Source: Nitrospinota bacterium (GTDB lineage: Bacteria > UBA8248). Taken from it: 37,995 nt of DNA. The translations under genes and the position numbers were made by a program. The stretch is from positions 1-37,995 of the forward strand of contig JAPOYD010000081.1 in the NCBI GenBank assembly GCA_026706735.1, in the 5' to 3' direction. Position 1 is the stretch's first letter; the number at the start of each line of letters is the position of its first letter. Positions 8,134-37,550 of this stretch are shown piece after piece. The notes below the pieces were generated by a model. The model was not told where the DNA came from and did no database searches. It worked only from the letters and a program-made list of their open reading frames with translations.

Positions 8134-8200
8134 TATACATATAAACAACCACTTATGGGAATAAAATCATTCGCATCCAAACCCAGGAGGACATACAAAC

Positions 8201-8764
8201 ATGGTGGAGAGCATCAATTATCCCTGGCATGAGAGCACCGTGCCCGGCGAGCGGCCGATCGACAAGCCCGAACTCCCCAAAGACGGCTATGAGATCACCA
8301 TGCTCGCCGAGACCGAAACGATGGACGACGGGCAGCTCAAAATCGGGCGCTTCCGGCATTTCGAGGTATTCAGCGACGAACCGCCCCGCATCGGAGGAGA
8401 AGACAGGTATCCCCAGCCTCTCACGTACATCGCCATGGGGGTCGGGTTCTGACTGCTGACCCAGCTTGGGCGGTACGCCCATATGACGAAAACCACCTTC
8501 GAGAAGGCCGCCTGCCGCGTGGAATTCGATTATTTCCTAAAGGGTTCCGTCTTGAAAGGCGACGTGAATTCAGGGTGCAGAATGGTGCGTACGCACTTCA
8601 AGGTCGAATCGAGCGAAGCGGAAGAGAAAATCCTGAACATCATCCGGTTGGCGAAACAAGGCTGCTATGCCGAACAGATGGTCCAGACGGCGGTTCCACT
8701 CACGAGCACTGTTGAACTAAACGGGAAAAGCATCGAACTGGAGGGAATCACGAATCCCGCTTGA
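8201..8764 (+). CDS. OsmC-family protein with in-frame TGA read as selenocysteine
   Basis: Read through the TGA at 8450-8452, the frame gives 187 residues with Sec at position 84. Before the TGA stands GGEDRYPQPLTYIAMGVGF, the normal OsmC approach to the peroxidatic cysteine; after it, LLTQLGRYA continues the same helix. The second OsmC cysteine is present as C155 in AKQGCYAEQMV, 71 residues later (66 in E. coli OsmC). So Sec stands where the catalytic cysteine belongs. The only good ribosome binding site (AGGAGG, 8185-8190) is before the ATG at 8201; none precedes the later in-frame ATG at 8483. A SECIS-like hairpin follows. OsmC/Ohr proteins reduce organic hydroperoxides with small thiols; a Sec form should be a faster peroxidase. 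OsmC-like selenoproteins have been predicted from marine metagenomes, as I recall. The alternative is a pseudogene with a single nonsense change. Confidence 0.85.
8450..8481 (+). promoter_or_regulatory. UGA-Sec codon and bacterial SECIS-like hairpin
   Basis: The TGA is at 8450-8452. Downstream, TGGGC (8467-8471) pairs with GCCCA (8477-8481) around the loop GGTAC; an extra G-C pair may reduce the loop to GTA. The loop begins 19 nt after the UGA, inside the 16-37 nt range known for bacterial SECIS elements, and has G in the first loop positions followed by U, as in the GGU loop of E. coli fdhF. This hairpin would bind SelB and direct Sec insertion. Confidence 0.75.
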
Positions 8765-8925: not shown

Positions 8926-9040
8926 GTGTTTCCATACCTTTATCAGGAAGACGGGATTCTAAAACGCCCCAACCCGGTCGTCAACATAGAAACGTCTTGT
9001 GCCCCTTGATGTTATACAGTCTCCTCCTTATGGTGAAAGA

Positions 9041-10054
9041 ATGGTGAAACGGTCTCCATTTCCCGTGGGCAAACTTCCCCCAGATGTGCTGGGCGCTCTG
9101 CTCAAGAACACGACTTCTCACCCGCGCCTCATCGTGGGACCACGGGTTGGAGAAGACGCGGCCGTTATCGACATGGGAGATCGCTACCTTGTCGCGAAAT
9201 CTGACCCCATCACGTTTGTGGAGCATCATATCGGGCGCTATGCCGTACATGTGAACGCAAACGACATCGCTTGCATGGGAGCCACTCCTCTGTGGTTTCT
9301 GATGACTCTGCTTCTGCCTGAAGGACGCGCTGATGAGGCGATGACAAGCCGTATCTGGGAAGAAGTGGAAGATGCATGCGCCGATTTGGGCATTACTTTA
9401 TGCGGGGGTCATACCGAGGTTACGTCGGGTTTGGAATTTCCGATTCTTTCGGGCCACATGCTGGGTGAAGTCTCCAAGGAGAATCTGATACGCGGCGCGG
9501 ACGCGCAAGTAGATGATTTGATTCTGCTTACGCGCGCGATACCCGTCGAGGGAACGACGATCCTGGCGGACGCAAAATACGATTATCTCAAAAGCATCAT
9601 GGATGCCGAGATACTGGAGAATGCGAAAAAATACGTGGAATCTCCCGGCATCAGCGTGGTAGCGCAAGCTCTGGCGGCGGCCGGAACCGGCTCCGTGCAC
9701 GCGATGCACGACCCGACCGAAGGCGGCCTCGCCACCGGCATCCATGAAATGGCGGGGGCGGCAGGTCTGGGAGCAATCGTGGAAGAAGCCGGCATTCCCA
9801 TCTCTCTTGAAGGCGGAATGATTTGCAAAGCGTTGGATCTCAATCCTTTGGGCGTCATTACCTCGGGGGCGCTTTTGCTGGCGGTTCCAGCCGAAGGAGA
9901 AGGGGTTGTGAGAGAAACGCTCATGGCGACGGGCGCGATGGGCGTTCGCATCGGCAAATTATGCGCTCCTGAATTTGGGGTGCGCATGAACAGTGGCGGG
10001 AAAACCTCTCCGCTCAAGCGCTTCGATTCCGATGAAATCTCAAGAGTGCTGTGA
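9041..10054 (+). CDS. AIR synthase-related (HypE-like) ATP-binding protein
   Basis: A 337-residue protein of the PurM/HypE/SelD/ThiL superfamily of ATP-dependent enzymes. Visible features in order are GEDAAVI (37-43), SDPIT (54-58), VNANDIACMGA (71-81), the glycine-rich stretch LCGGHTEV, and HDPTEGG in the second domain. It most resembles HypE-like proteins, but the C-terminus ends DEISRVL and lacks the PR-x-C tail whose cysteine is carbamoylated in true HypE. The SelD signature (GCxxK-type Cys/Sec and Lys near the N-terminus) is also absent, so it is not selenophosphate synthetase despite the selenoprotein next door. The ATG at 9041 is preferred over a GTG at 8999. The HAD gene starts 10 bp after its stop, suggesting a two-gene operon. 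Substrate unknown. Confidence 0.8.
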   Translation: MVKRSPFPVGKLPPDVLGALLKNTTSHPRLIVGPRVGEDAAVIDMGDRYLVAKSDPITFVEHHIGRYAVHVNANDIACMGATPLWFLMTLLLPEGRADEAMTSRIWEEVEDACADLGITLCGGHTEVTSGLEFPILSGHMLGEVSKENLIRGADAQVDDLILLTRAIPVEGTTILADAKYDYLKSIMDAEILENAKKYVESPGISVVAQALAAAGTGSVHAMHDPTEGGLATGIHEMAGAAGLGAIVEEAGIPISLEGGMICKALDLNPLGVITSGALLLAVPAEGEGVVRETLMATGAMGVRIGKLCAPEFGVRMNSGGKTSPLKRFDSDEISRVL

Positions 10055-21867: not shown

Positions 21868-23373
21868 CTAAATAAACCCGGCGACGGTGCCCTTCGCCGC
21901 GTCCAGGAAGCTGCCCGGGAAGATGCCCAGCAGAAGCGTCCCCACCACCAGCACCACCATCGCGAAGAAAAGCGAGGGCGCGCTCGAGAGGCTCATCACC
22001 TCCTGGGTCTCGCCACGGTTCTCCATGTAGAGCACCATGATGATGCGGCCGTAGTAGTACATTGAGACCGCGCTCATCACGAGCCCGATGGCGGCGAGCC
22101 AGTAATACTCGTTCTGCACCGCCGCCGCGAAGAGGTAGAGCTTGCCGACGAAGCCGGCCGTCGGCGGAATGCCGCCGAGCGAGAGCAGGAACACCACGAA
22201 GGCCATGCCCGCCCAGGGGTGCGCCTGCCCGATTCCCTTCCAGTCCTCGATGTTGTCGCCCCGGTACCCCTCCCGGCACACGAGAATCAACATCCCGAAG
22301 GCGCCCAGGTTCGTGAACAGGTAGGCGAGCAGATAAAACGCCACAGCACTGATGCCGATGTCCGAGAACGTCACCTTGCCGTCGATAATGCTCATGGAGA
22401 CCACCACGCCCATCAGCACGTAGCCCGCGTGTCCGATGCTCGAGTACGCCAGCATGCGCTTCAGGCTCGTCTGCGCGATGGCCGCCACGTTCCCCCACAC
22501 CATCGTGAACGCCGTGAGCACCCACAACAGGGTGTTCCACCTCTCGGCCATGGCCGGGAACGCCACGAAGAATATCCGCATCAGGGCGGCCACGGTCGCG
22601 AATTTGACGGCCACGGACATGAAGCCCGTAATCGGCGTCGGCGCGCCCGTATAGGCGTCGGGCAGCCACATGTGAAACGGCGCCAACGCCAGCTTGAAGC
22701 CGAAGCCCGCGACGAGGAGGATGAGGCCGAAAATCATCACCGGGTTCTGCGCGATGGCCGCGCCGCCCGAACCTGCGAACGCCTCCGCGATTCCGCGAAT
22801 CGAGGTCGTACCACAAAACCCGTACGTCAGGGCCATGCCGTATAAGAGGATGCCGGAGGCGAAAGCGCCCATGAGGAAATACTTGAGGCCCGCCTCCCGG
22901 CTCAGGGGATCGTGCCGCATGAACGCCACGAGCACGTAGATGCTGATGCTCATGGTCTCGAGCCCCAGGTAGACCGTAAGCAAATCGTTGCCGGACGCCA
23001 TCACGAGCATGCCGAATACCGAGAAGAGCAGCATGGCGTAGAGTTCGCCGTAGTTGATCTTCTCCACCTTGGCGTATTGAAGCATCAGCAGAATGGAAAT
23101 GGCCGTACAGGCCAGCACGCACACCTTCACGAACACGCTCAGGTTGTCGACCACGTAGAAATCGTTGAACGTCGTTCTCGCGCCCCCGCCCCATTGCCCG
23201 AAGGCGACGAGCGCCAGGATCACGACCCCCACGAACGCCACGACGCCCACGCGGGACTTGTTCTCTATCGACACGAACAGGTCGAGGATCAGAACCGCGC
23301 AGACGAGAATGGCCAGCCCTATCTCGGGAAGCGCCAGGGACAAGGCGATGTCGGGAATCACCACTTCCAGCAT
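21868..23373 (-). CDS. nuoN: NADH-quinone oxidoreductase subunit N (cluster B copy)
   Basis: A 501-residue proton-pumping membrane subunit of complex I with about 14 helices. Family marks are GLETMSISIYVLVAFMR, the LKYFLMGAFASG stretch, APFHMWLPDAYTGAPTP and KRMLAYSSIGHAGY. The ATG at 23373 has GGAG 8 nt upstream. It closes the second complex I cluster (nuoA to nuoN) and meets the end of the permease operon tail to tail. A homologous copy is at 31681-33159. No truncation or frameshift is seen. Confidence 0.95.
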   Translation of the reverse strand: MLEVVIPDIALSLALPEIGLAILVCAVLILDLFVSIENKSRVGVVAFVGVVILALVAFGQWGGGARTTFNDFYVVDNLSVFVKVCVLACTAISILLMLQYAKVEKINYGELYAMLLFSVFGMLVMASGNDLLTVYLGLETMSISIYVLVAFMRHDPLSREAGLKYFLMGAFASGILLYGMALTYGFCGTTSIRGIAEAFAGSGGAAIAQNPVMIFGLILLVAGFGFKLALAPFHMWLPDAYTGAPTPITGFMSVAVKFATVAALMRIFFVAFPAMAERWNTLLWVLTAFTMVWGNVAAIAQTSLKRMLAYSSIGHAGYVLMGVVVSMSIIDGKVTFSDIGISAVAFYLLAYLFTNLGAFGMLILVCREGYRGDNIEDWKGIGQAHPWAGMAFVVFLLSLGGIPPTAGFVGKLYLFAAAVQNEYYWLAAIGLVMSAVSMYYYGRIIMVLYMENRGETQEVMSLSSAPSLFFAMVVLVVGTLLLGIFPGSFLDAAKGTVAGFI

Positions 23374-23408
23374 CAGAAAAACTCCATCAAATCAAGCGAA
23401 ATCTCTGT

Positions 23409-24956
23409 TTATTTCTCGAGCTTCGTCATTTTGCCGAGCGCCGCCTTCTGCGGCGCCTCCGCCACGTTCACCATCTTCACGACCTTCTTCACGCTCGCCT
23501 CCATCCTCCCGAGGAACGGCTTGGGATACAGGCCAATCCAGAACATCAGGATGACCAGCGGCAGAAGGTAGAGCACCTCGCGCGCGTTGCAGTCGGTGAG
23601 CTTCTCGTTCTCGGGATTATCCAGATTCCCGAAGAACACCCGCTGGAAGAGCCAGAGCATGTAGGCCGCTCCCAGGACGATGCCGATGACGGCGAAGGCG
23701 GCGTACACGTAGCTCTTCTTGAACGCGCCGATGAGGATCAGGAACTCGCCCACGAACCCGTTCAGCCCCGGCAGCCCGATGCTGCTCAGCATCGTGATGG
23801 CGAAGATCACCGTAAAGACCGGCACGACTTTCGAGAGGCCGCCGTAATCGGAGATGAGGCGCGTATGACGCCTCTCGTAAACGACGCCCACCAGGAGGAA
23901 CAAGGCGCCCGTGCTGATTCCGTGGTTGATCATCTGAAGCTGTCCGCCGAGCACGCCCTGCTCGTTCAGGGCGAAGATGCCCAGCATCACGAAGCCCAGG
24001 TGGCTCACGGAGGAATAGGCCACCAGCTTCTTGATGTCGGTCTGCGCCATGGCCACCAGCGCCCCGTAGATGATCCCGATGATGGAGAGCAACACCATGA
24101 AGGGCACGAAAACATGGCTCGCCTGGGGCAGCAGGGGCAGGGCGAAGCGCACGAATCCGTAGGTTCCCATTTTCAACAGGATGCCCGCCAAGATCACGCT
24201 GCCCGCCGTGGGCGCTTCCACGTGCGCGTCCGGCAGCCAGGTGTGGAAGGGGAACATGGGGACCTTGATGGCGAAGCCGATGAAGAACGCCAGGAATATC
24301 CATATCTGGAGCGACAGCGGTATCTTCGGCCCCACGGCGTAGAGCTCCACCAGGTCGAACGTGAGGGTGCCGGTGCCCATCTTGAAGTTGGCGAAGTAGT
24401 ACGCCAGGATTCCCAGCAGCATCAACACGCTGCCGAACAGCGTATAGAGGAAGAACTTGATCGCCGCATAGAGCTTCCTCGGCCCGCCCCACACGCCGAT
24501 GAGGAAGTACATCGGCACCAGGGTGATCTCGAAGAACACGTAGAAGAGGAAGATATCGAGCGCGATGAAGGTGCCCAGCATGCCGGTCGCCAGCAAGAGG
24601 AGGCAGACGTAGTATTCCTTTTCGCGCTCCTCGATGGCGGTGAACGAGCACACGACCCCCACGATCATCGTCAGCGTCGTGAGCAGGACGAGCAGCACGC
24701 TGATCCCGTCGATGCCGACGAAGTAGCTCACCCCGATGGTGGGTATCCAGCTCACCTTCTCCACGAACTGGAATCCGGCTTCGGACTGATCGAAACTGAA
24801 CCAAAGCGGAAGCGAGATCAGGAAGTCCAAGACCACCACCGCCGTGGCGAAACCCTTGATGGCTTTCGTCTGCTCTTTCTTCATGAAGAGCATGATAATC
24901 ACCGCGCCCAACGCGGGCAGGAAGGTGATCAGCGTAAGAAGCGGCATGTTACTCAT
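23409..24956 (-). CDS. nuoM: NADH-quinone oxidoreductase subunit M (cluster B copy)
   Basis: A 515-residue antiporter-like membrane subunit. The essential membrane glutamate is E143 (FFEITLVPMY). The lysine-bearing segments FAIKVPMFPFHTWLPDAH and LLKMGTYGF, and GLPGLNGFVGEF in the second half-channel, are all present. GGAGGAA stands 2-3 nt before the ATG at 24956. Its paralogue at 33162-34718 aligns without a gap over the first 150 residues. The C-terminal tail beyond the last helix is lysine- and alanine-rich. Confidence 0.96.
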   Translation of the reverse strand: MSNMPLLTLITFLPALGAVIIMLFMKKEQTKAIKGFATAVVVLDFLISLPLWFSFDQSEAGFQFVEKVSWIPTIGVSYFVGIDGISVLLVLLTTLTMIVGVVCSFTAIEEREKEYYVCLLLLATGMLGTFIALDIFLFYVFFEITLVPMYFLIGVWGGPRKLYAAIKFFLYTLFGSVLMLLGILAYYFANFKMGTGTLTFDLVELYAVGPKIPLSLQIWIFLAFFIGFAIKVPMFPFHTWLPDAHVEAPTAGSVILAGILLKMGTYGFVRFALPLLPQASHVFVPFMVLLSIIGIIYGALVAMAQTDIKKLVAYSSVSHLGFVMLGIFALNEQGVLGGQLQMINHGISTGALFLLVGVVYERRHTRLISDYGGLSKVVPVFTVIFAITMLSSIGLPGLNGFVGEFLILIGAFKKSYVYAAFAVIGIVLGAAYMLWLFQRVFFGNLDNPENEKLTDCNAREVLYLLPLVILMFWIGLYPKPFLGRMEASVKKVVKMVNVAEAPQKAALGKMTKLEK

Positions 24957-24979
24957 AGTTCCTCCAAAACCTCATCGCA

Positions 24980-27001
24980 TCAGCGGAAAAGGTACGCGCT
25001 CAGCATCACGAAGATGCCCAACAGCATCACGAAAAGATAATTCTGAACCATCCCGGATTGCAGGTATTTGAATACCTGGGAGAAAAAGCGGATGAAGCTC
25101 GCCGTGCCGTTCACCGCGCCGTCCACCGTCCGAAGGTCGAATATGCCCGAGAAGCGGCTCGACACGACGGTGATGAGCGAACTGCCGTTCACAGCACCAT
25201 CCACCACCTTCGCATCGAAGGTCCACAGGCCGCGCATGAGCTTGTATGTCGGTTCGACGATGCAGGCCTGATAAATCTCGTCGATATAGTATTTCTCGAG
25301 AAGCAGACGATATATGCCCGTAAAACGCTCGTACAGGCGACCCGGCGCATCGGTGTCTTTGACGTACATGTACCACGCCAGGGCGATGCCGCCCAAGGCG
25401 ACGGCGATGGCCAGGATGATCAGGAACACCACCGCCGGCCCGCTGTGCCCGCCGCCGGCCGCGGCGTTCATCAGGTGCACGCCCTGGTCCATGGCGTGGC
25501 CGCCCGCCGGCACCTTCGCCAGCGAGGGGGCGAGGAAGCGGTGTATCCAGCCGGCCTCGGGCGGGAAGCCGGGAATCACGCCGCCGATGACGCTCAGGAC
25601 CGCCAGGATGACGAGCGGAACCGTCATCGTAGCGGGCGATTCGTGAATGTACTCGCGGGCGTGATGGTCGACGCGCATCTCTCCGTGAAACGTCATGAAG
25701 ATGAGCCGGAACATGTAGAAGGCCGTCATGAAGGCCGCAACGGTGCCCATGATCCAGACCGTATAGTGTCCCGTGAAGAAGGCGTTCGCCAGAATCTCGT
25801 CCTTGCTCCAGAAGCCCGCCAGCGGCGGCACGCCCGCGATGGCGACCGCGCCGATCAGGAACGTCCAGTACGTGATGGGCATCTTGTCCTTCAGGCCCCC
25901 CATGTAGCGCATGTCCTGCTGCTGTTCCTCGGGCGCGTGGTGAAGCGCGTGGATGACGCTGCCGCTGCCCAGAAAGAGCAGGCCCTTGAAGAAGGCGTGG
26001 GTCATCAGGTGGAAGATGCCGGCCGTGAAGGCGCCCACGCCCAGCGCCATGAACATGAAGCCGAGCTGGCTCACCGTGCTGTAGGCGAGCACGCGCTTGA
26101 TGTCGTTTTGCACCAGGCCGATGCTCGCGGCGAAAAGGCCCGTGAGCGCGCCGACGACCGCGATGACGCTCATCGCGTCCGGCCCCATGACGTAGATGGG
26201 GCTCGTGCGCGCAACCATGTAGACGCCCGCCGTCACCATGGTGGCGGCGTGGATGAGGGCGCTCACCGGCGTCGGGCCTTCCATGGCGTCGGGCAGCCAG
26301 ACGTAGAGCGGAATCTGCGCGCTCTTGCCGATGGCGCCGACGAACAGCAGAAGACCGACGGCCGACGCCATCGCCGCGCTCATCTCGGGCGCCGCCTTGA
26401 AGACCTCCGTGTAGGTGAGGCTGCCGGTCAGCGTCCAGATGAGGAACATGCCGAGCAGAAAGCCCGCGTCGCCGATGCGGTTGACAATGAACGCCTTCTT
26501 GCCCGCGTCGGACGCGGATTGCTTCTCGTACCAGAAGCCGATGAGCAGATAGCTGCAAAGGCCCACGCCCTCCCAGCCGACGAACATGACGAGATAGTTG
26601 TCGCCCAGCACGAGGAGGAACATCGAGAGCATGAACAGGTTGAGGTAGGTGAAAAAGCGCGGGTAGCCCGGGTCCCCGTGCATGTAGCCCACGGCGTAGA
26701 CGTGCACCAGAAAGCCCACGCCCGCGACCACCAACAGCATGATGGTGCTGAGCGGATCGATGAGGAAACTCATCGACGCGCTGAAGCTGCCCGCTTCCAC
26801 CCAGGTCCAAAGCGGCACGGTGTGGCTGCCGCCCGCGCCGAAGATCATCTCAAACGCAATGCCCAGCACTACGAGAAACGACAAGCCCGCCATGACGGAA
26901 GCGATGGGGCCCGCCTTCTCGCCCACCTGCTTTCCGAACAATCCGTTGATCAGAACCCCGATCACCGGAAAAACGGGAATGAGCCAAGCCAGTTCGATCA
27001 T
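24980..27001 (-). CDS. nuoL: NADH-quinone oxidoreductase subunit L (cluster B copy)
   Basis: A 673-residue distal antiporter-like subunit of complex I. Visible marks are E144 in FVGWEGVGLCSY, GKSAQIPLYVWLPDAMEGPTPVSALIH, HAATMVTAGVYMVAR, and a long C-terminal region ending with the LQSG.VQNYL segment of the lateral helix and final transmembrane helix, so the piston arm is complete. AGGGG precedes the ATG at 27001. It is longer than the paralogue at 34755-36659 (634 residues), mostly in the loop before the lateral helix. Confidence 0.96.
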   Translation of the reverse strand: MIELAWLIPVFPVIGVLINGLFGKQVGEKAGPIASVMAGLSFLVVLGIAFEMIFGAGGSHTVPLWTWVEAGSFSASMSFLIDPLSTIMLLVVAGVGFLVHVYAVGYMHGDPGYPRFFTYLNLFMLSMFLLVLGDNYLVMFVGWEGVGLCSYLLIGFWYEKQSASDAGKKAFIVNRIGDAGFLLGMFLIWTLTGSLTYTEVFKAAPEMSAAMASAVGLLLFVGAIGKSAQIPLYVWLPDAMEGPTPVSALIHAATMVTAGVYMVARTSPIYVMGPDAMSVIAVVGALTGLFAASIGLVQNDIKRVLAYSTVSQLGFMFMALGVGAFTAGIFHLMTHAFFKGLLFLGSGSVIHALHHAPEEQQQDMRYMGGLKDKMPITYWTFLIGAVAIAGVPPLAGFWSKDEILANAFFTGHYTVWIMGTVAAFMTAFYMFRLIFMTFHGEMRVDHHAREYIHESPATMTVPLVILAVLSVIGGVIPGFPPEAGWIHRFLAPSLAKVPAGGHAMDQGVHLMNAAAGGGHSGPAVVFLIILAIAVALGGIALAWYMYVKDTDAPGRLYERFTGIYRLLLEKYYIDEIYQACIVEPTYKLMRGLWTFDAKVVDGAVNGSSLITVVSSRFSGIFDLRTVDGAVNGTASFIRFFSQVFKYLQSGMVQNYLFVMLLGIFVMLSAYLFR

Positions 27002-27008
27002 GATTCCC

Positions 27009-27311
27009 CTACCACTTCAAAAGGTTGACTTCGTCCACGTTGACCATCGTGCGGTCGCGGTTGAGCGCAATGAGAATCGCAAGTCCCACGGCCGCCTCGC
27101 ACGCCGCCACGGTGATGACGAAGATGCCGAACACCTGGCCCGTCATGTCCGCCAGATGGCGCGAGAAGCCCACGAAGGTCACGTTCACGGCGTTGAGCAT
27201 CAATTCGATGGACAACAGGATGATGATGGCGTTGCGGCGCATCAGAACGCCTGCCGCGCCGATGAGGAACAAGATGGCGCCCAGAACGAGAAAATGAGTC
27301 ATCGGTATCAT
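27009..27311 (-). CDS. nuoK: NADH-quinone oxidoreductase subunit K (cluster B copy)
   Basis: A 100-residue, three-helix membrane subunit. The two conserved membrane glutamates needed for proton transfer are E36 (LLSIELMLN) and E72 ([12 protein letters not shown]). The ATG at 27311 is taken as start; an ATG three codons later is equally possible. It lies 7 bp before nuoL and 19 bp after nuoJ. Confidence 0.96.
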
Positions 27312-27330
27312 CGCGTGTTCTCTCTTTCCT

Positions 27331-27840
27331 CTATCTCTCTATCGTGCGCTTCGCCAGGACGATGGCGCCGATCATCGCGGCCAGCAGAAGGACGGAGGCC
27401 ACCTCGAAGGGGAACAGGAATTTCGTGTACAAGACCGCGCCCAGCGCCTCGACGTTGCCCGGCGTGGCTCCCAGGGACCACTCCCACTGCTTGGGCGCCG
27501 CGAACTCCACCTCCCCCAGCACGGCCCATATTTCGAGGCCCAGAAGCACGGCCGCCACGAACACCACGACGCCCTGTCGGTGCCACTGCCGCATCCGCAC
27601 GGCGACTTCCACGTTCATCAACATGATCGAGAACAGGTAGAGCACCATGATGCCGCCCGCGTAGAGCAGAATCTGCACCGCCGCCAGGAACTCCGCTCCC
27701 GCCAGTACGAAGACGCCGGCGAGGAAGAAGAACGTCAGCACCAGCAGCAGGGCCGCGTGAATCACGTTCGCGCGCGTAACCATCAGCAGGGAGGTGAGGA
27801 TCATCCCGCCCGCGAACATATAAAAGAAATAGATTTCCAC
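27331..27840 (-). CDS. nuoJ: NADH-quinone oxidoreductase subunit J (cluster B copy)
   Basis: A 169-residue membrane subunit with five helices. The segment [21 protein letters not shown] and the following [22 protein letters not shown] (quoted by position, about residues 22-70) carry the pi-bulge helix typical of NuoJ. A GTG at 27840 with GGGAG before it is taken as start; an ATG at 27819 is possible. It starts 17 bp past nuoH: the nuoI normally found between H and J is absent here. Confidence 0.9.
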
Positions 27841-27857
27841 CCTGCGTCTCCCGTGCG

Positions 27858-28829
27858 TTACAAGAACAGGTACTTCAGGAATCCGGTCAGGAAAATGTTG
27901 AGCATCACGAGCGGGAACATGAACTTCCAGCCCACGCGCATCAGCTGGTCGTAGCGATAGCGCGGCAGCGTCGCCCGCAGCCATATGAAGACGAACATGA
28001 ACACGGAGAGCTTCAAGACGTACCATACGAAGCCGGGAAGCGGAATGAAATCCGGCCCCTCCCATCCGCCGAAGAAGAGCACGATGCCTATCGTCGATAT
28101 GACCATCATGCTGGCGTATTCCGCCAGGAAGAAGAACGCGAACTTCATCCCGCTGTATTCCGTGTGAAAACCCGCCACGAGTTCGGTTTCCGCCTCGGGC
28201 AAATCGAAGGGCGCGCGGTTCGTCTCGGCCAGCGCGGCGACAAAGAAGACGATGAACGCCACGGGCTGGTAGAACACGAACCACACGTCGCGCTGCGCGT
28301 GCACGATCTCCTGTAAGTTCAAGGAACCGGCGAGCATCAGCGGCCCGATGACGGAGAAGCCCAGGAATATCTCGTAGCTCAGCATCTGCGCCGCGCTCCT
28401 GAGCGCGCCCAGAAGCGAGTATTTGCTGTTCGAGGCCCAGCCCGCCATCACCACGCCGAACACGCCGAGCGAACTGATCGCCAGGACGAAGAACAGCCCG
28501 ATGTTGATTTGCGTGATGTAGAACGTCGCGCTGAAGGGCAGCACCGCATAGACGACCAGGGCGGGCACCAGCACCATCACGGGCGCCAGGACGAACACGA
28601 CCCGGTCCGCCTTGTCGGGAACGATGTCTTCCTTGAGGAACAGCTTCAGTCCGTCCGCAATCGGCTGGAGAAGGCCGTGCCAGCCCACGCGCATGGGTCC
28701 CAGGCGCAACTGGGCGTGGGCGATCACCTTCCGCTCGACGTAGATCAGATACGCCACCACGAGCTGCACCACGTTGACTACGATGAATATCTTTATCGCG
28801 GCGACCGCGACTTCAAGCGCCATGTCCAA
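27858..28829 (-). CDS. nuoH: NADH-quinone oxidoreductase subunit H
   Basis: A 323-residue membrane subunit that forms the quinone chamber with NuoB and NuoD. It shows [36 protein letters not shown] and [24 protein letters not shown] (in parts), all quinone-site loop sequences. The TTG at 28829 is preferred because AAGGAG is 8 nt before it, while the ATG two codons later would be 14 nt away. The ribosome site overlaps the nuoD stop. It is the only nuoH in the window. Confidence 0.95.
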
Positions 28830-28841
28830 CGAAGCTACTCC

Positions 28842-29984
28842 TTACCGATCACACTCGCCCAACACGATGTCGATGCTTCCGATAATGGCCACCACGTCCG
28901 CGACCAACTGCCCGACGCACAGCTTCTTCAGCCCGCCCAGGTTGATGAATGAGGGCGGGCGGATGCGGACGCGATAGGGCGTCGTCGTCCCATCGCTTAC
29001 GATGTAAAAGCCGAACTCGCCCTTGGGGTTTTCGATGCTGTGGTATATCTCGCCCTCGGGGGGCTTGATGGTTCGCGGCGTCTTGCAGCTCGCCGGTCCG
29101 CCGGGAAGCTGCTCCAGGCACTGCTGGATGATGTAGGTGCTCTGGCGCAACTCCTCGATGCGCACCAGATAGCGATCGTAAATGTCGCCGTTCTCGCCGA
29201 TCGGCACGACGAAATCGAGATAGGGATACGCCGCGTAGGGCTTGGCGCGCCTCAGGTCCCATTTCACGCCGCTGCCCCGGATGATCGGGCCCGTGAGGCC
29301 CAAATCCATCGCGTCCTCGGCGGAGATGATGCCCACATCGCGCGTTCTCTGCAGCCAGATGCGGTTGTTGGTGAGCAGCGTCTCGTAATCGTCTACCCGG
29401 CTCGGGAAAATGTCGACGAACTCCTGCGTGAGCTGCAGGAACTTCTCCGGCACGTCCTCGTGCAGGCCACCCAGGCGGAAGGCGTTCACCGTGAGGCGGC
29501 CGCCGAACGCCGTCTCGAAGAGATCGAGCACCATCTCGCGCTCTCTGAAGCACCACAGGAACACCGTCATCGCCCCGATGTCCAGGGCGTGCGTGGCGAG
29601 CCAGAGCAGATGGCTGGCGATGCGGGAGAGCTCTCCCACCATCGAGCGGATGTACTGCGCCCGCATGGGGATCTCCCAATCGAAGAATTTCTCCACCGCC
29701 GTGACCCAAGCGAGATTGTTCGAGGGAGCGGCGATGTAGTCGAGGCGGTCCGTATAGGGGATGAACATCGTGTAGTTGATGTTTTCGCCGATCTTCTCGG
29801 TGCCGCGGTGCAGGTAGCCGATGTCGCAGTCGAGATCGTTCACCGTCTCGCCGTCGAGCTTCAGGATCACCCGGAGCACCCCGTGCGTGCTCGGGTGCTG
29901 GGGACCCATGTTGATCACGAGTTCTTCGGTCCCGTGCAGGGTGCTCTGCTGATCTATACGAGACACGTTCGCTACGCCGACCAT
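28842..29984 (-). CDS. nuoD: NADH-quinone oxidoreductase subunit D
   Basis: A 380-residue peripheral-arm subunit (49-kDa homologue) that forms the quinone head-group site. H30 and H34 in GPQHPSTHG are the conserved histidines. LHRGTEK, the ALDIGAMTVFLW helix and the C-terminal RIRPPSFINL with DIVLGECDR are all in place. AAGGAATAAGGA lies before the ATG at 29984. It is separate from nuoC, 29 bp downstream of it, unlike the fused NuoCD of E. coli. Confidence 0.97.
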   Translation of the reverse strand: MVGVANVSRIDQQSTLHGTEELVINMGPQHPSTHGVLRVILKLDGETVNDLDCDIGYLHRGTEKIGENINYTMFIPYTDRLDYIAAPSNNLAWVTAVEKFFDWEIPMRAQYIRSMVGELSRIASHLLWLATHALDIGAMTVFLWCFREREMVLDLFETAFGGRLTVNAFRLGGLHEDVPEKFLQLTQEFVDIFPSRVDDYETLLTNNRIWLQRTRDVGIISAEDAMDLGLTGPIIRGSGVKWDLRRAKPYAAYPYLDFVVPIGENGDIYDRYLVRIEELRQSTYIIQQCLEQLPGGPASCKTPRTIKPPEGEIYHSIENPKGEFGFYIVSDGTTTPYRVRIRPPSFINLGGLKKLCVGQLVADVVAIIGSIDIVLGECDR

Positions 29985-30013
29985 ATCCTTATTCCTTCAA
30001 AAGGTACGCCGCT

Positions 30014-30616
30014 CTAATCGCCGATTTCCTTGCGTTTCGGCTTGGTGTAAATCCGCTCTCCCCTGCCCTCGAGCGGATAGTCCTTCCGCATCGGATGGCT
30101 GCCCCAGTTGTCGGGCAGAAGTATCCGCCTGAGATCCGGATGGTCCTCGAACTCAATACCGAACAAATCGTACACCTCGCGCTCCATCCAGTCCGCGCTG
30201 CTCCACACGCCCGAAACCGTAGGCATGGACTGGCCTTCCTTGATCCGCACCTTGAGGCGCAGCCTGCGGTTATGCTCGAAACTATAGAGGTGGTAGAGCA
30301 CTTCGAGGGGATTTTCGGCCTCAGGGTAATGCGCCGCCGTCAAATCGGTGAGGAGCTTGAAGAGCGAATCGCCGTGATCGCGCAGATGCGTGGACACGGC
30401 GACGATGGAATCGACGTCCAAGACGAACGTCGCCTCGTCCTCATCGTCCTCATATGCGCTCTGCTCCAGGACGGCGCCCGGAAACGCCGACTCCACCACC
30501 TCCTTCAAATCCTCGCCGGGCGGGGTCTTTACGGCTTCGGCAACCTCATCGGCGGATTCCTCGGAATCGGGCGCGCCGTTCGTTTCTTCGCTGTTTTCCA
30601 CTGCTTCGTCGGACAT
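30014..30616 (-). CDS. nuoC: NADH-quinone oxidoreductase subunit C
   Basis: A 200-residue peripheral-arm subunit (30-kDa homologue). The core signature is EREVYDLFGIEFEDHPDLRRILLP followed by GSHPMRKDYPLEG, quoted by parts. The first ~40 residues are extremely acidic and serine-rich, an extension not needed for the fold. AAGGA precedes the ATG at 30616, and no later in-frame start has a comparable site, so the acidic extension is probably real. It follows nuoB by 26 bp. Confidence 0.95.
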   Translation of the reverse strand: MSDEAVENSEETNGAPDSEESADEVAEAVKTPPGEDLKEVVESAFPGAVLEQSAYEDDEDEATFVLDVDSIVAVSTHLRDHGDSLFKLLTDLTAAHYPEAENPLEVLYHLYSFEHNRRLRLKVRIKEGQSMPTVSGVWSSADWMEREVYDLFGIEFEDHPDLRRILLPDNWGSHPMRKDYPLEGRGERIYTKPKRKEIGD

Positions 30617-30642
30617 CTTCTTTCCTTGTGCGCCGCAGGCTC

Positions 30643-31119
30643 TTACCGGCGGATGTATTTTTCCTGTTCAATTTTTTTCTGAAGCTGCATGACGCCCCAC
30701 ATCAAGGACTCGGGCCTGGGCGGGCAACCCGGAACGTAGACGTCCACCGGGATGATTTCATCCACTCCCTGCATCACCGCATAGTTTGCGTACGGGCCGC
30801 CGCAGGTGGCGCAGTTGCCCATCGCGATCACCCAGCGCGGCTCGGGCATCTGGTCGTAGACCTTGCGAATCGCGTCCCCCATCTTGTGGGTGACGGTGCC
30901 CGCCACGATGATCACGTCGGACTGGCGCGGCGTGGCGCGGAAGATCACGCCGAAACGGTCGAAATCGTAGCGCGCCGCGCCCGAGGCCATCATCTCGATG
31001 GCGCAGCACGCCAGGCCGAAGGTCATCGGCCAAAGCGCGCTTTTTCTCGCCCAGGCGACCAGGCTGTCGACTTTCGACGTGATGAAGTTGTCGCTGAACT
31101 TGCCCTCGACTATGCCCAC
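30643..31119 (-). CDS. nuoB: NADH-quinone oxidoreductase subunit B
   Basis: A 158-residue subunit that holds iron-sulfur cluster N2, the last electron donor to quinone. The four ligands are C38 and C39 ([10 protein letters not shown]), C103 ([10 protein letters not shown]) and C132 (PGCPPRPE). A GTG at 31119 with AGGAG 9 nt upstream is the start; it overlaps the end of nuoA by 10 nt. A longer frame upstream overlaps nuoA and is not coding. Confidence 0.96.
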
Positions 31120-31511
31120 TCCAACGCTCCTTTCCGCCAAGCGTAGAAATATCCCACCAACAGGATGGCGATGAACAGCATCATCTCGATGAATCCGAAC
31201 AGCCCGAGGGCGTCGTAGCGAACCGCCCAGGGGAAGAGGAACAGGGCTTCCACGTCGAACAGCAGGAACAGGATGCCCAGCAGGTAAAACCGGATGGAAA
31301 AGCGCTCGTGCGCCTCCATGAGGGGGGGCATGCCGCACTCATAGGGGGAGTTCTTCTCGGGGTCCGGGTTATTCGGGCGGATGATGAACGCGAAGATCAG
31401 AATGCTCGCGGCGAGCGCGGCCGCCATGAGCGTGATCAGGAAGATGGGGATGTAGGGATTGATGACCTGATAATCCCTGAAAAATGCGCCGACAACCTCC
31501 ACCGGATCCAT
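31110..31511 (-). CDS. nuoA: NADH-quinone oxidoreductase subunit A
   Basis: A 133-residue, three-helix membrane subunit at the heel of complex I. The quinone-channel loop [10 protein letters not shown], then [26 protein letters not shown] (quoted in part), identify it. The ATG at 31511 has only a weak GGGGG site before it. It opens cluster B, 169 bp after the end of the preceding nuoN, so a separate promoter may exist in that gap. Confidence 0.96.
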
Positions 31512-31632
31512 GCGTGAACCCCCACAAAAACTGCCAACCGCCAGGGTGATGAAAATGCGCCGCCCTCAATGTTGCCGCAAGGCGGGCATTCCCCTCGAAA
31601 ACCCCTGGAACAAAAGCCTGAAATCGAACGAA

Positions 31633-31656
31633 CCGCCATGACTTATATCATGGCGG
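31633..31656. repeat. perfect 9-bp hairpin between the two nuo clusters
   Basis: CCGCCATGA (31633-31641) pairs with TCATGGCGG (31648-31656), with a 6-nt loop. It lies in the 169-bp gap between the end of cluster A (nuoN) and nuoA. Both directions lack a U-run. It could be a weak terminator for cluster A, a protein binding site, or an mRNA processing site. Confidence 0.6.
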
Positions 31657-31680
31657 CAACCGAAAAACCAACCCCTGAGG

Positions 31681-33159
31681 TCAATTAAAAAAGACTGTGG
31701 AGCGATGGGCGAAATCCAGCACCGAGGAGGGGAAAATTCCCAGCTGCAGAGTACTCGCGACGGCGAGCGTGAGCGCCGCGGCCGCATAGGACCAGCCCGG
31801 ATGCGGAGCGCGCCTCACCTCACCGCCCTGTGGTTCGCGCATGTACATCACCACGACGAGCCGCAGGTAATAATACACGGCCACCACGCTGTTGAGCACC
31901 GCTATCACGGTCAGCCAGACGTACCCGCCGTTCAGCGCCGCGCTGAACACGTGGAATTTCGCCACGAAACCTCCGGTGGGCGGAAGCCCCGAGAGCGACA
32001 CCATGAACACGGCCATCGCCGCCGCAAGACCTGGCCGGAAAGAGGCCAGACCCGCGAGATTGTCCAGCTTCGTGCTCCCGTCCTCGCGCATGTTCGAGAT
32101 GAGGATGAGCACGCAGAAAGCGCCCATGTTCATGAAAACGTAGACGAGCATGTAGTACAGGAACCCGCTCGTGGCCAGTTCCGCGCTCGAGCGTGAGGCC
32201 ACGAGCGCGACCATCAGATAGCCGGCGTGGGCGATGCTCGAATAGGCGAGCATCCGCTTCACGCAGGTTTGCCAGATGGCGATGAGGTTCGCCAGGCTCA
32301 TCGTGAGGACGGCCATCACCCACAAAACCGCATCGAAACTCCCGCCGGCGTCGCCCGCGGAGAGAAAAACCCGGAAAAACGCGGCGAAAGCCGCCGCCTT
32401 CGGCCCCACGGACATGAACGCCGTCACCGCGGTGGGCGCGCCCTCGTATACGTCCGGCGTCCACATGTAGAACGGCGCGGCCGCCACCTTGAAGCCTAGG
32501 CCCACCACCATGAAGCCCAGACCCATCAGAAAGGCCGCCCCTCGCGAGGCGGGATTCTCGTGAAGCCGCGTCGCTATCTCGATCAGGTCGACCGAGCCGG
32601 TCGCGCCATAGACGAGCGCCATGCCGTAGAGCAGAAAGCCCGAGGCGAACGAACCGAGCAGAAAGTATTTGAGCGACGCCTCGTTGCCCTCGGGCCGCGC
32701 GCGCAAATAACCCGCCAGGACGTAGAGCGACAGGGAGAACACCTCGAGACCCACGAAGATCATCAGCAGGTTCCGCGTCGCCGCCATGAGCATCATGCCT
32801 GAGGTGGCGAAGAGGATGAGGCCGAAATACTCGCCCGCCGGCGTATCGTCCAGCTCCCGCTGGGCCGCGGCGATGAGCACAGCGAATATGCTCGCGAACA
32901 GGATGACGACGTAGAGGAACTGCGTGAACCCGTCGAAGAGGTACATGCCGCCGAACGACGCGGCCAGACCCGGCAGCGCGCGCGCGCCGAGCGTCACGCC
33001 CAGGGCGGCGGCAAGCGTCAACAACGAGATGATGATGATGACGGAGCGCTCCCCCCTGGCGAGAAAAGCGTCCCACATCAACACCAGCACTGCCCCGCAC
33101 ACCGGCAGGATCACCGGCAGCAGGTATCCCCAATGGATCGTAGGATAAACGATATCCAA
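31681..33159 (-). CDS. nuoN: NADH-quinone oxidoreductase subunit N (cluster A copy)
   Basis: A 492-residue homologue of the NuoN at 21868-23373. Shared marks include GLEVFSLSLYVLAGYLR, LKYFLLGSFASG, APFYMWTPDVYEGAPT and KRMLAYSSIAHAGY. The start is a TTG at 33159, with GAGGTG upstream that overlaps the end of nuoM. The frame is full length. It closes cluster A. Confidence 0.94.
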   Translation of the reverse strand: MDIVYPTIHWGYLLPVILPVCGAVLVLMWDAFLARGERSVIIIISLLTLAAALGVTLGARALPGLAASFGGMYLFDGFTQFLYVVILFASIFAVLIAAAQRELDDTPAGEYFGLILFATSGMMLMAATRNLLMIFVGLEVFSLSLYVLAGYLRARPEGNEASLKYFLLGSFASGFLLYGMALVYGATGSVDLIEIATRLHENPASRGAAFLMGLGFMVVGLGFKVAAAPFYMWTPDVYEGAPTAVTAFMSVGPKAAAFAAFFRVFLSAGDAGGSFDAVLWVMAVLTMSLANLIAIWQTCVKRMLAYSSIAHAGYLMVALVASRSSAELATSGFLYYMLVYVFMNMGAFCVLILISNMREDGSTKLDNLAGLASFRPGLAAAMAVFMVSLSGLPPTGGFVAKFHVFSAALNGGYVWLTVIAVLNSVVAVYYYLRLVVVMYMREPQGGEVRRAPHPGWSYAAAALTLAVASTLQLGIFPSSVLDFAHRSTVFFN

Positions 33160-33161
33160 AG

Positions 33162-34718
33162 CTATTTCACCTCGACTCTTTGCGCATAGGCGAGCGCGCT
33201 CTTTCGCAATTTCCGCTCAGGCGCTTTCTCCACGCGCAGCACCCGCCGGTTCACCTGCGAGAGCCATACCTTGGCTGAGGGCTCGATTCGCTCGAACAGC
33301 GGCTTGGGATAAAGCCCGATCCAGAACATGAGGGCCACCATGGGCAGCATGACGAGCCACTCGCGCCTGTTCATGTCGGCGAGCCCCAGGTTCGCCCGCA
33401 CGCTCACCTCGCCGAACAGGACGCGCTGGAGCATCCAGAGCATGTAGACCGCCGAGAGAACCACGCCGGTGGCCGCGAATACGGCGAACCAGGCGTTGCG
33501 CTCGAACGCGCCCAGCAGAATCGTGAACTCGCCCACGAACCCGTTCAGTCCCGGAAGGCCGATGCTGCTCAGCGCCGTGATGATGAAAAACGTCGAAAAG
33601 ACAGGCATCACCCGGAGCAGCCCGCCGAACTCCTCGATTTCCCTTGTGTGCCGCCTCGAATAGATGAAGCCCACGATCAGGAAGAGCGCCCCGCTGCTGA
33701 TGCCGTGGTTCACCATCTGTATAACGCTCCCCGAAGCGCCCAGAAGGTTGAAGGAAAAAAGCCCCAGCATCACGAACCCCAGGTGACTCACCGAGGAGTA
33801 GGCCACCAGCTTTTTCACGTCGGTCTGCACCATGGCCATGAGCGCGCCGTAGATGATCCCCACCAGCGCCAGGCAGATGATGAGAAACGCGAACTCGCGC
33901 GCCGCCGTCGGGAACAGCGGCATCGCCAGCCTCATGAAGCCGTATGTGCCCATCTTCAGGAGGACGCCGGCGAGGATGACGCTTCCCGCCGTGGGCGCTT
34001 CCACGTGGGCGTCGGGCAGCCAGGTGTGAAACGGGAAAATCGGCACCTTGATGGCGAAGGATATGGCGAACGCGGCGAACAGCCACGGCTGGAGAGCGGC
34101 GTCCACGGGTTCTCTGAAATGCGCGAGGATGTCGAACGTGCCGACCCCGCTCGCGAAATACAGCCAGATGATCGCCACGAGCATCAGCACGCTTCCGGCC
34201 ATGGTGTAGAGGAAGAACTTTACGGCCGCGTAAATCCGGCGGCTTCCGCCCCAGACCCCGATGATGAGGTACATCGGAATCAGCATTCCTTCCCAGAAGA
34301 CGTAGAACAGGAAGAAATCGAGCGCGAAGAACACGCCGAGCATCCCCGTCTCCAGGAACAGCAGGGACATGTAGTAGAGCCGCGTCTTTTTCCGCACGTC
34401 CTCGAAGGAGAAGAGAATCGCGACGGGCGTCAGGATGGTGGTCAGCATCACGAGCAGCAGGCTGATGCCGTCCACGCCCACTTTGTATGCGATCCCGAAC
34501 CTCGGTATCCAGGCCGCTTCCTCGACGAACTGCATGCCCGCGTAATCGGCCCGGAAGCCCAGGTACATCACGGCCGAAAGGGCGAACGTGGCCAGGGACA
34601 CCGCCAGCGCGAACGCGCGAACGCTTCCGCTTCCCTTCCGCGCGTCCTCGCGCGCGAACAGGAGCAGCAGGCCCCCGAGCATGGGCAGGAACAGTATCGA
34701 GGTGATTATTCCAGGCAT
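33162..34718 (-). CDS. nuoM: NADH-quinone oxidoreductase subunit M (cluster A copy)
   Basis: A 518-residue antiporter-like subunit, paralogue of 23409-24956. E143 (FWEGMLIPMY), FAIKVPIFPFHTWLPDAH, LLKMGTYGF and GLPGLNGFVGEF are all kept, so proton pumping residues are intact. GAGG lies upstream of the ATG at 34718. The stop is 2 bp from the TTG of nuoN. Its sequence differs substantially from the cluster B copy. Confidence 0.95.
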   Translation of the reverse strand: MPGIITSILFLPMLGGLLLLFAREDARKGSGSVRAFALAVSLATFALSAVMYLGFRADYAGMQFVEEAAWIPRFGIAYKVGVDGISLLLVMLTTILTPVAILFSFEDVRKKTRLYYMSLLFLETGMLGVFFALDFFLFYVFWEGMLIPMYLIIGVWGGSRRIYAAVKFFLYTMAGSVLMLVAIIWLYFASGVGTFDILAHFREPVDAALQPWLFAAFAISFAIKVPIFPFHTWLPDAHVEAPTAGSVILAGVLLKMGTYGFMRLAMPLFPTAAREFAFLIICLALVGIIYGALMAMVQTDVKKLVAYSSVSHLGFVMLGLFSFNLLGASGSVIQMVNHGISSGALFLIVGFIYSRRHTREIEEFGGLLRVMPVFSTFFIITALSSIGLPGLNGFVGEFTILLGAFERNAWFAVFAATGVVLSAVYMLWMLQRVLFGEVSVRANLGLADMNRREWLVMLPMVALMFWIGLYPKPLFERIEPSAKVWLSQVNRRVLRVEKAPERKLRKSALAYAQRVEVK

Positions 34719-34754
34719 CCGCCCCTCGCACTCCTCAAAGAATCGAAAGAATCA

Positions 34755-36659
34755 TCAGCGCGCCGTGAGATACAGCAGAATCACCAGCGCGCCGACCAGC
34801 ATCGAAACGGCGTAGCTCTTCACGTAGCCCGTCTGGAGACGCCTCAGGACGCCGCCCAGGGAGCGCACGAAAATGCCCGCCCCGTTCACGGCCGCGTCCA
34901 CCAGGCCGTCCTCGAACGCTCGCCAGCACCAGATCGACGCCCGCTTCACCGGTTGAACGATCAAGGCGTCGTATATCTCGTCCACGTAATACTTGTTCAC
35001 CAGAAGGCGGTGAACCCCCGGCCAGAGTTCCGCATAGGCGCTGCCGCCGTCGTTTTTCAGCACATAGAGATTGTAGGCCGCGTAAATGCCGATGAAGGCG
35101 ATGACGAGCGAGAACACCATCATCAACAGTTCGAACACCACCTCGTGGTGCGCCTCGGCGTGAGCGCCGAAAACGGGCGCGAGGAAATCGCCGAAAACGT
35201 TCGCCCCCGTGATGATCGGAATCCCCACCCAGCCGCCGACGATGGAGAGCGCCGCCAGCGCCTGAAGCGGGAGCGTCATGTTTGTGGGGGATTCATGGAC
35301 TTTCTGCTGCTCCTCCAGACTCAGATTGCAGGTGCCGAAGAATACCCGGAACAAGAGCCTGAACATGTAGAACGCGGTCATCAGCGCGCCGGCCGCGCCG
35401 GCGAGCCACAGGAGGATTCCGCCGCGCTCGGCCGTCATGGCCGAGTAGAGAATGGCGTCCTTGCTGAAGAAACCGGCGAAGGGGAATATGCCCGCAATCG
35501 CCAGCGCGCCGATAACGAAGGTGTTGCTCGTTCGCGGCAGGGCCGCCTGGAGTCCGCCCATCCTGCGAATGTCCTGCTCGCCGTCCAGGGCGTGGATCAC
35601 GCTTCCCGCGCCCAGGAACAGGAGCGCCTTGAAGAACGCATGGGTCATCAGATGGAAGATCGCCGCGGAGAACGCCCCCACGCCGCATGCCAGAAACATG
35701 TAGCCCAGCTGGCTCACCGTGCTGTAGGCGAGCACCTTCTTGATGTCGGTCTGCACCAGGGCGATGGACGCCGCCATCAACAGCGTGAGCGCGCCGATGA
35801 CGGCCACCACGAACATCGCCGCCGATGAGAGTTCGAAGAGCACGTGTGTTCTCGCCACCATGAAGACGCCCGCCGTCACCATCGTTGCCGCGTGTATCAG
35901 AGCGCTGACCGGGGTGGGGCCTTCCATCGCGTCGGGCAGCCAGACGTATAGGGGAATCTGCGCGCTCTTGCCCGTCGCGCCCGCGAAGAGCAGCAGGCAG
36001 ATGATCGTCGCCGCGGCACTTTCGGGACCGAGCAGCCCGGGGGCTTTTGCGAACACTTCCGAGAAATCCAGCGAGCCGACGACGCTGTAGATGTAGAAAA
36101 GCGCTATCAGGAAGCAGAAATCACCCACCCGGTTCACGATGAAGGCCTTCTTGCCGGCCTCGGCCGCCGCCTTGCGCTCGTACCAGAAGCCGATGAGCAG
36201 GTAGCTGCACAGGCCCACCGCCTCCCAGCCCACGAACATGACCACGAAGTTATCGCCCAGAACGAGCGTGAGCATGGAGAGCGAGAAGAGGTTCAGATAG
36301 ATGAAATAGCGCACGACGCCGCGGTCGTCGTGCATGTAGCCCATCGAGTAGAGGTGGATCAGCGCTCCTACGCCGGTGACGACCAGCGCCATGACGGCGG
36401 AAACCGGGTCCAGCGAGAAGCCCGCCTTGACCTCGAAGGCGCCCACGGGAATCCACTCGAACAAGACGACCCGGATGAGCCGCCCCTGCTCGGGCATCGC
36501 CAGCAGGCGGAGCCAGCTCACGAGCGACGCCGCGAACGCGAGCGCCATCGCCAGCGTCGCGGTCCAGCCGGCGAATTTCTCCCCGCGCTTCCAGCCGAAG
36601 AGCAGATTCACGAAAACGCCGATGAGGGGGAACGCCAATATGAGAGTCAAACTATCCAT
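34755..36659 (-). CDS. nuoL: NADH-quinone oxidoreductase subunit L (cluster A copy)
   Basis: A 634-residue antiporter-like subunit. E146 (FVGWEAVGLCSY), GKSAQIPLYVWLPDAMEGPTP and HAATMVTAGVFMVAR are present. The C-terminal part ends with LQTGYVKSYA and a last helix, so the lateral helix is complete. GAGGA precedes the ATG at 36659. The paralogue at 24980-27001 is 39 residues longer. Confidence 0.95.
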   Translation of the reverse strand: MDSLTLILAFPLIGVFVNLLFGWKRGEKFAGWTATLAMALAFAASLVSWLRLLAMPEQGRLIRVVLFEWIPVGAFEVKAGFSLDPVSAVMALVVTGVGALIHLYSMGYMHDDRGVVRYFIYLNLFSLSMLTLVLGDNFVVMFVGWEAVGLCSYLLIGFWYERKAAAEAGKKAFIVNRVGDFCFLIALFYIYSVVGSLDFSEVFAKAPGLLGPESAAATIICLLLFAGATGKSAQIPLYVWLPDAMEGPTPVSALIHAATMVTAGVFMVARTHVLFELSSAAMFVVAVIGALTLLMAASIALVQTDIKKVLAYSTVSQLGYMFLACGVGAFSAAIFHLMTHAFFKALLFLGAGSVIHALDGEQDIRRMGGLQAALPRTSNTFVIGALAIAGIFPFAGFFSKDAILYSAMTAERGGILLWLAGAAGALMTAFYMFRLLFRVFFGTCNLSLEEQQKVHESPTNMTLPLQALAALSIVGGWVGIPIITGANVFGDFLAPVFGAHAEAHHEVVFELLMMVFSLVIAFIGIYAAYNLYVLKNDGGSAYAELWPGVHRLLVNKYYVDEIYDALIVQPVKRASIWCWRAFEDGLVDAAVNGAGIFVRSLGGVLRRLQTGYVKSYAVSMLVGALVILLYLTAR

Positions 36660-36671
36660 GATTCCTCGGCT

Positions 36672-36974
36672 CTATAGCTTCAGTAGGTTGATCTCGTCGA
36701 GATCCGTGGATTCGCGGTTGCGGTAGATCAGCACCACGATGGCCAGCCCGATGGCGGCCTCCGCCGCGGCCACCGCCATCACGAAAAACACGATCATCTG
36801 GCCCGCCATCGAATCGAGGTACCGGCCATAGGCCACGAACGCCAGGTTCGCCCCGTTCATCATCAACTCGATGCACAAGATGACGACGATGGCGTTTCTG
36901 CGCACCACGACGCCCACGACGCCCAAGGAGAAGAGAACCGCGCTCAGAATCAGATAATGTTCGAGCGGCGCCAC
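36672..36974 (-). CDS. nuoK: NADH-quinone oxidoreductase subunit K (cluster A copy)
   Basis: A 100-residue, three-helix subunit with conserved E36 ([10 protein letters not shown]) and E72 ([11 protein letters not shown]) in exactly the same positions as the cluster B copy. The start is a GTG at 36974, with AGGAGG 8 nt upstream. It lies 12 bp after nuoJ. Confidence 0.95.
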
Positions 36975-36986
36975 GTCCCATTCCTC

Positions 36987-37505: not shown

Positions 37506-37550
37506 TACCGCCCTTCCTCCAGCGGGCGGGCGCCCGCTTCAAATCGAACC

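Follow-up and report, generated by a model that had tools for sequence, protein, structure and literature searches.

The question raised by this locus is whether a reading frame interrupted by an in-frame TGA represents a broken gene or encodes one protein that carries selenocysteine (Sec) at the point of interruption. The window, that is, the whole stretch of DNA analysed here (37,995 nucleotides, contig JAPOYD010000081.1 of the Nitrospinota assembly GCA_026706735.1), contains a frame that is open apart from this TGA, has TGA also as its closing codon and on read-through gives a product of 187 amino acids with the TGA as residue 84 (Table 1). The first-pass annotation had placed both halves of an OsmC protein in one frame, split only by a TGA at the site of the catalytic cysteine, and the homologue alignment confirms this arrangement. 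Comparison of sequences suggests that the locus as a whole is best explained, with high probability, by a single OsmC-fold protein in which the UGA is read as Sec.

Table 1. Positions of the OsmC-like selenoprotein gene and its signals in the window
Feature	Position	Strand	Basis
OsmC-like selenoprotein gene, branch A, NCBIfam NF041052 (predicted)	8201..8764	+	frame, profile matches, homologue column, selection
AGGAGG, likely ribosome-binding site, 10 nt 5' of ATG 8201	8185..8190	+	sequence
In-frame TGA, predicted to be read as selenocysteine U84, motif GFULLTQ (UxxT)	8450..8452	+	homologue column
SECIS-type hairpin (bacterial) UGGGCG-GUA-CGCCCA	8467..8481	+	folding and homologue comparison
C155 codon (second Cys, conserved; candidate for the resolving role)	8663..8665	+	alignment
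TGA ending the OsmC gene	8762..8764	+	sequence

The distribution of residues at the TGA column was analysed in two collections of homologues. The genome search gave a match in 29 of 98 genomes, the window's own genome counted in. Across 88 homologous stretches, a count built on the fetched loci with five weak matches of the genome search outside it, the column shows TGA in 76 and Cys in 9, while 3 fragments end short of the site; all 76 close homologues covering the site have TGA, and the nine Cys rows are remote OsmC proteins scoring 21-44 bits. The second collection, comprising the best 80 of 134 confirmed loci and overlapping partly with the first, involves 87 matching stretches, with TGA at the site in 84; the remaining three comprise two Cys OsmC proteins of a different kind plus a fragment. 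A survey of homologues for Cys or Sec at this column had been proposed along with the first reading, and its outcome in both collections is the one expected of a selenoprotein. Within these best 80 of 134 loci, the 84 TGA copies belong to records titled Nitrospinota, Tectomicrobia, Betaproteobacteria/Burkholderiales, SAR202/Dehalococcoidia and a few others, and the nearest relatives of the window copy (79-96% identity) come from records with the titles Nitrospinota, Nitrospinae or Candidatus Tectomicrobia, or in two cases simply 'bacterium'. The threonine at +3 from U84 (U84-L-L-T) is present in 76/76 copies, giving a UxxT motif together with the in-frame UGA, and the catalytic column is Cys or Sec in 119/119 rows of the protein set used for the tree described below.

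A lone TGA within an otherwise normal frame is also the expected look of a fresh pseudogene, created by a nonsense mutation, and a sequencing or assembly error might produce the same appearance. Such a broken gene is at odds with the identical TGA in all the homologues covering the site and in the 84 copies of the second, partly overlapping collection. It is equally at odds with the evolution of the downstream part: the frame after the TGA is under purifying selection. When the gene of the window is compared with its counterparts in six congeneric genomes (7 genomes in all), mean dN/dS is 0.014 for the part preceding the TGA and 0.080 for the part following it. The synonymous and nonsynonymous codon differences after the TGA, given as sums over 21 non-independent pairs, are 441:165 in frame as compared to 84:445 and 28:551 in the other frames. 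Considering in addition that the hairpin following the TGA is conserved, we rejected pseudogene and sequencing or assembly error alike, their probability being very small.

The hairpin had been claimed to start 19 nt past the TGA. It was recovered with its loop 19-20 nt downstream of the UGA, and its conservation across homologues goes far beyond chance. Folding of the window sequence by itself identifies a structure that is only moderately unusual (z -1.67, with 10/200 shuffles equally stable), and 1.2% of synonymous recodings reach the same stability. Since the fold of a lone sequence is weak evidence, the case for the hairpin rests on the comparison across homologues, for which 64 distinct homologous windows out of the 76 copies were evaluated against random synonymous codons from the same genes (1000 runs). 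The four inner pairs are present in 63/64 windows, compared to a mean of 5.5 and a maximum of 14 in the recodings, and five pairs are present in 57/64 as opposed to 4.9 expected; the outermost stem pair is found in 49/64 windows only, and the next in 58/64. The second base of a variable codon covaries with the wobble base of an Ala codon (GCG/GCG 40, GGG/GCC 10, TCG/GCG 8, GAG/GCT 2, and four more combinations once each). The loop G, which in 63/64 windows occupies the wobble position of a codon for Arg, is retained in 64/64 compared to 29 expected. The hairpin is conserved beyond coding needs and is under selection. The criteria for bacterial SECIS elements given in the available part of a recent catalogue, a list that is perhaps incomplete, are a loop of 3-9 nt, a stem of 4-16 bp, a G among the first two loop nucleotides and a spacing of 16-37 nt (PMC13188914). 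With a GUA loop, a stem of 5-6 bp and a spacing of 20 nt, the window hairpin falls within these partly seen criteria.

The presence of an ATG 30 nt past the TGA (position 8483) could suggest two genes, one stopping at the TGA and the other starting from this ATG. However, the peptide LLTQLGRYA between the TGA and the ATG is conserved as protein, inspection by eye reveals no ribosome-binding site upstream of ATG 8483, and the read-through protein gives one Pfam OsmC domain match (43 bits, cut-off 27.5; residues 66-168) that spans both halves. Two separate genes were dismissed on these points as an extremely improbable arrangement. The frame would likewise be open whatever residue the TGA stands for, as in a genome that has reassigned TGA throughout or reads it as another amino acid, e.g., Trp. 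Reassignment of this kind was discarded as having hardly any likelihood, given that the same gene terminates at the TGA at 8762, that relatives show Cys in the column and not Trp, and that the genome encodes Sec machinery.

Regarding this machinery, the first-pass annotation had pointed to selA, selB, selC and selD as the genes to look for in the same genome. All are present in the host assembly (3.79 Mb in 191 contigs, 93.7% complete), which characterizes the organism as an equipped Sec user: selA (578 bits), selB (383 bits) and selD (334 bits, the match containing one TGA) each exceed the curated cut-off, as does the tRNA-Sec (75.8 bits), to which ARAGORN assigns Sec with the anticodon tca (UCA in RNA). 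Among 11 genomes checked that have TGA-containing OsmC genes, a tRNA-Sec match above cut-off was found in 11 and a selA match above cut-off in 9. The remaining two are G016 (estimated 98% complete, 8% contaminated), with no selA over the cut-off and a best match of 48.9 bits, and G048 (86% complete), with no selA match and a tRNA-Sec barely above cut-off (50.3 vs 47 bits). The UGA at 8450-8452 is almost certainly decoded as Sec, because the TGA is invariant in the homologues covering it, the sequence behind it is under purifying selection, the hairpin is kept beyond coding needs and the host possesses the Sec machinery. The core of the original proposal, an OsmC-family selenoprotein with Sec at the catalytic position, thus draws support from column, hairpin, selection and sel genes together.

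The read-through protein is a member of the NCBIfam family NF041052, OsmC_like_Se ('OsmC-related (seleno)protein'), at 161.6 bits (cut-off 95), and no difference from that family was found; 28/28 members of alignment A1 match the model at E <= 0.001. In an alignment with the OsmC-like structures 3cje, 2opl and 2onf, the residue at the TGA falls on their cysteine. An AlphaFold model built with 28 sequences has a mean pLDDT of 89.2, and its nearest solved folds are the OsmC/Ohr proteins 2onf and 1lql (TM 0.82-0.84 when normalized to target length and 0.63-0.65 when normalized to query length), so that model and fold search assign to the window protein the OsmC fold of the Ohr/OsmC hydroperoxide reductases. 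These enzymes are lipoyl-dependent hydroperoxide reductases that carry a pair of redox residues. The window protein has the corresponding pair in U84 and C155, at places equivalent to those of the reductases, yet with Sec where the reductases have Cys. The second, resolving cysteine had been noted as retained, and this holds widely: C155 occurs in 28/28 rows of alignment A1 and its motif in 73/76 Sec copies, the remaining 3 matches ending earlier.

Another feature of Ohr proteins, an acidic residue some ten residues ahead of the peroxidatic one, is missing from the window protein. Neither E nor D is found at -9 or -10 in any branch-A copy, that is, in the close homologues of the window protein (0/76), as opposed to an acidic residue at -9 in 40/44 and 27/35 rows of Cys OsmC proteins and in 16/16 rows of the branches B, C and D introduced below, the Cys forms of C included. 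Except for NF041052, no NCBIfam model, Ohr and OsmC among them, matches the window protein at E <= 0.001, and an Ohr model has a weak match in 1/28 aligned relatives. The acidic residue is also absent from 2/2 Cys proteins that group with branch A, implying that its loss is independent of Sec.

In the reading favoured here, SelB together with tRNA-Sec most probably inserts Sec at the UGA, directed by the hairpin just downstream, and the TGA at 8762 terminates the protein. The selenolate of Sec84 might then attack an oxidant, for which an organic hydroperoxide or some other electrophile is the probable candidate, and afterwards form an Se-S bond with C155 as the resolving residue, the Sec84/C155 pair being recycled by a thiol donor. 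Because the acid at -9 is absent and the NCBIfam models of Ohr and OsmC find no match, peroxidase activity, which the first-pass annotation had expected to be highly reactive, is a guess, and by analogy to the known reductases we put hydroperoxide chemistry of Sec84 at an even chance. A selenoprotein with another role, in which Sec84 serves a different redox or transfer reaction (its partner being, e.g., a thioester, a metalloid or a thiol of low molecular weight), is a realistic reading to which we give a little less than an even chance. In favour of such a role, branch A lacks the acidic residue that the Cys proteins and branches B to D mostly or always have, and up to 11 copies per genome would fit with substrates that diverge. 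It is countered by the retention of the U84/C155 pair, as in Ohr/OsmC peroxidases, and by the two Cys proteins grouping with branch A, in which the acid is absent without Sec being present. Under either chemistry, the protein is understood here as a single OsmC-fold chain with Sec at residue 84.

The copy in the window is one of several. In 18 genomes of the host phylum, NF041052 has 72 matches over the cut-off, each with one TGA, which by hand count amounts to between 1 and 11 copies per genome, with 3 in the window's genome. Beyond this branch A, three further OsmC branches have TGA at the catalytic column. Branch B (motif AG[HY]AGUGL) belongs to the host lineage, with Sec in 7/7 copies from 7 genomes, and one member is encoded in the window's own genome (L203, G000:C103:2294-2788). 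Its hairpin, CGCUGCU-GGG-AGCAGCG, has the stem formed in 7/7 copies, compared to 1.5% expected with synonymous codons, and the stem varies by G-U pairs only. Branch C (motif LSGLG[AS]UM), likewise of the host lineage, combines Sec forms in 3 genomes (L205, L206, L207) with Cys forms in 4 (L253, L254, L293, L294), all within one bacterial family. Its seven-pair stem, one pair of which is compensatory, is complete in 3/3 Sec copies (0.1 of 3 expected, maximum 2 in 2000 runs) and in 0/4 Cys copies, where 3 to 6 of the 7 pairs are left, one copy being at 6/7. Branch D (motif SALGAUTSM) is from two species of one genus in another bacterial family (L281, L282), both genomes having selA and tRNA-Sec above cut-off; its hairpin was seen by inspection only. 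Two Sec representatives of B and one of C score 57.9, 55.9 and 42.7 bits with NF041052, below the cut-off of 95.

A quick tree of 119 proteins, calculated with the catalytic column removed, requires at least 5 changes between Sec and Cys; one of these hangs on the two Cys proteins beside branch A, where the forks are unresolved, and 4 remain without it. The Sec and Cys forms of branch C constitute one clade (SH-aLRT 99%). SH-aLRT is the sole measure of support, and a program warning was issued that long branches meet, the branch leading to A included. Of the 76 copies of branch A the tree has 22, and of the 9 remote Cys rows it has 4; Cys proteins from within the lineage were taken at >= 100 aa and >= 17 bits, with L229 left out. 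Further Cys rows are from loci among the matches listed, up to 30 in each of two lists, with many more existing. On this evidence, OsmC proteins have probably swapped Cys for Sec, or Sec for Cys, repeatedly at a single catalytic column, as represented by branches A to D. If true, the OsmC fold provides a natural series in which the contribution of Sec can be compared. The paralogues, which in branch C include Sec as well as Cys forms, also offer a natural test of what a bacterium gains from selenocysteine in a redox protein of this small size. At two loci from betaproteobacterial bins (L165, L180), a Cys OsmC protein with the motif AGIAFCYMTQ is encoded on the minus strand near a Sec copy; the tree places it with branch A.

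Proteins of this kind are already known, in that OsmC selenoproteins with UxxT were listed in 2005 and an NCBIfam family exists for them. The assertion that OsmC-like selenoproteins had been predicted in metagenomes was borne out by the accessible text of the original surveys, which list three sequences from the Sargasso Sea in 2005 (PMC1088965) and five from GOS in 2008 (PMC2398784); the available portions of reviews from 2022 (PMC9312934) and 2026 (PMC13188914) also include them, the latter as a catalogue in which one OsmC-like family is entered. As far as the available text of these sources goes, the published proteins share with the window protein their membership of the OsmC family, a UxxT motif that contains Sec and a predicted bacterial SECIS downstream, a likeness by motif and description (PMC1088965, PMC2398784, PMC13188914). 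Compared to the metagenomic proteins as described there, the window protein is distinguished by its lineage, which is of the Nitrospinota/Tectomicrobia type and has several paralogues in a genome. The available sections of published accounts of OsmC-type selenoproteins contained no biochemical data. Our literature search found no paper that mentions NF041052 by name, and none that combines organic hydroperoxide resistance, selenocysteine and peroxidatic cysteine. In the accessible text on Nitrospinota, Nitrospinae and Tectomicrobia, the word selenoprotein was not found and selenocysteine appeared once, in one paper.

Gene callers for which TGA is always a stop split the gene into two fragments, and copies are easily lost from annotations. 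The OsmC selenoprotein and its paralogues are thus easily overlooked in annotations of these uncultured bacteria. Two OsmC selenoprotein copies elsewhere (L102, L103) occur in two pieces and are apparently frameshifted, either decayed or misassembled; their pieces were kept unjoined. At the congeneric loci, the gene is flanked by an AIR-synthase-type gene, a gene for a HAD-type hydrolase, tRNA-Phe and a gene that by eye is DinB-like but matches neither Pfam nor NCBIfam models. The tRNA-Phe is present at 12/21 loci, of which some have short flanks. These flanking genes were not found at the examined loci of more distant copies, some again with short flanks, and the neighbourhood therefore gives no functional hint. 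The AIR-synthase-type protein of the window (8999-10054) reaches 100 bits with HypE and 90 bits with SelD, below both cut-offs, and a SelD above cut-off is encoded elsewhere in the host genome. Farther along the window, on the minus strand at 21868-37970, lie two successive gene runs that resemble by eye subunits of respiratory complex I.
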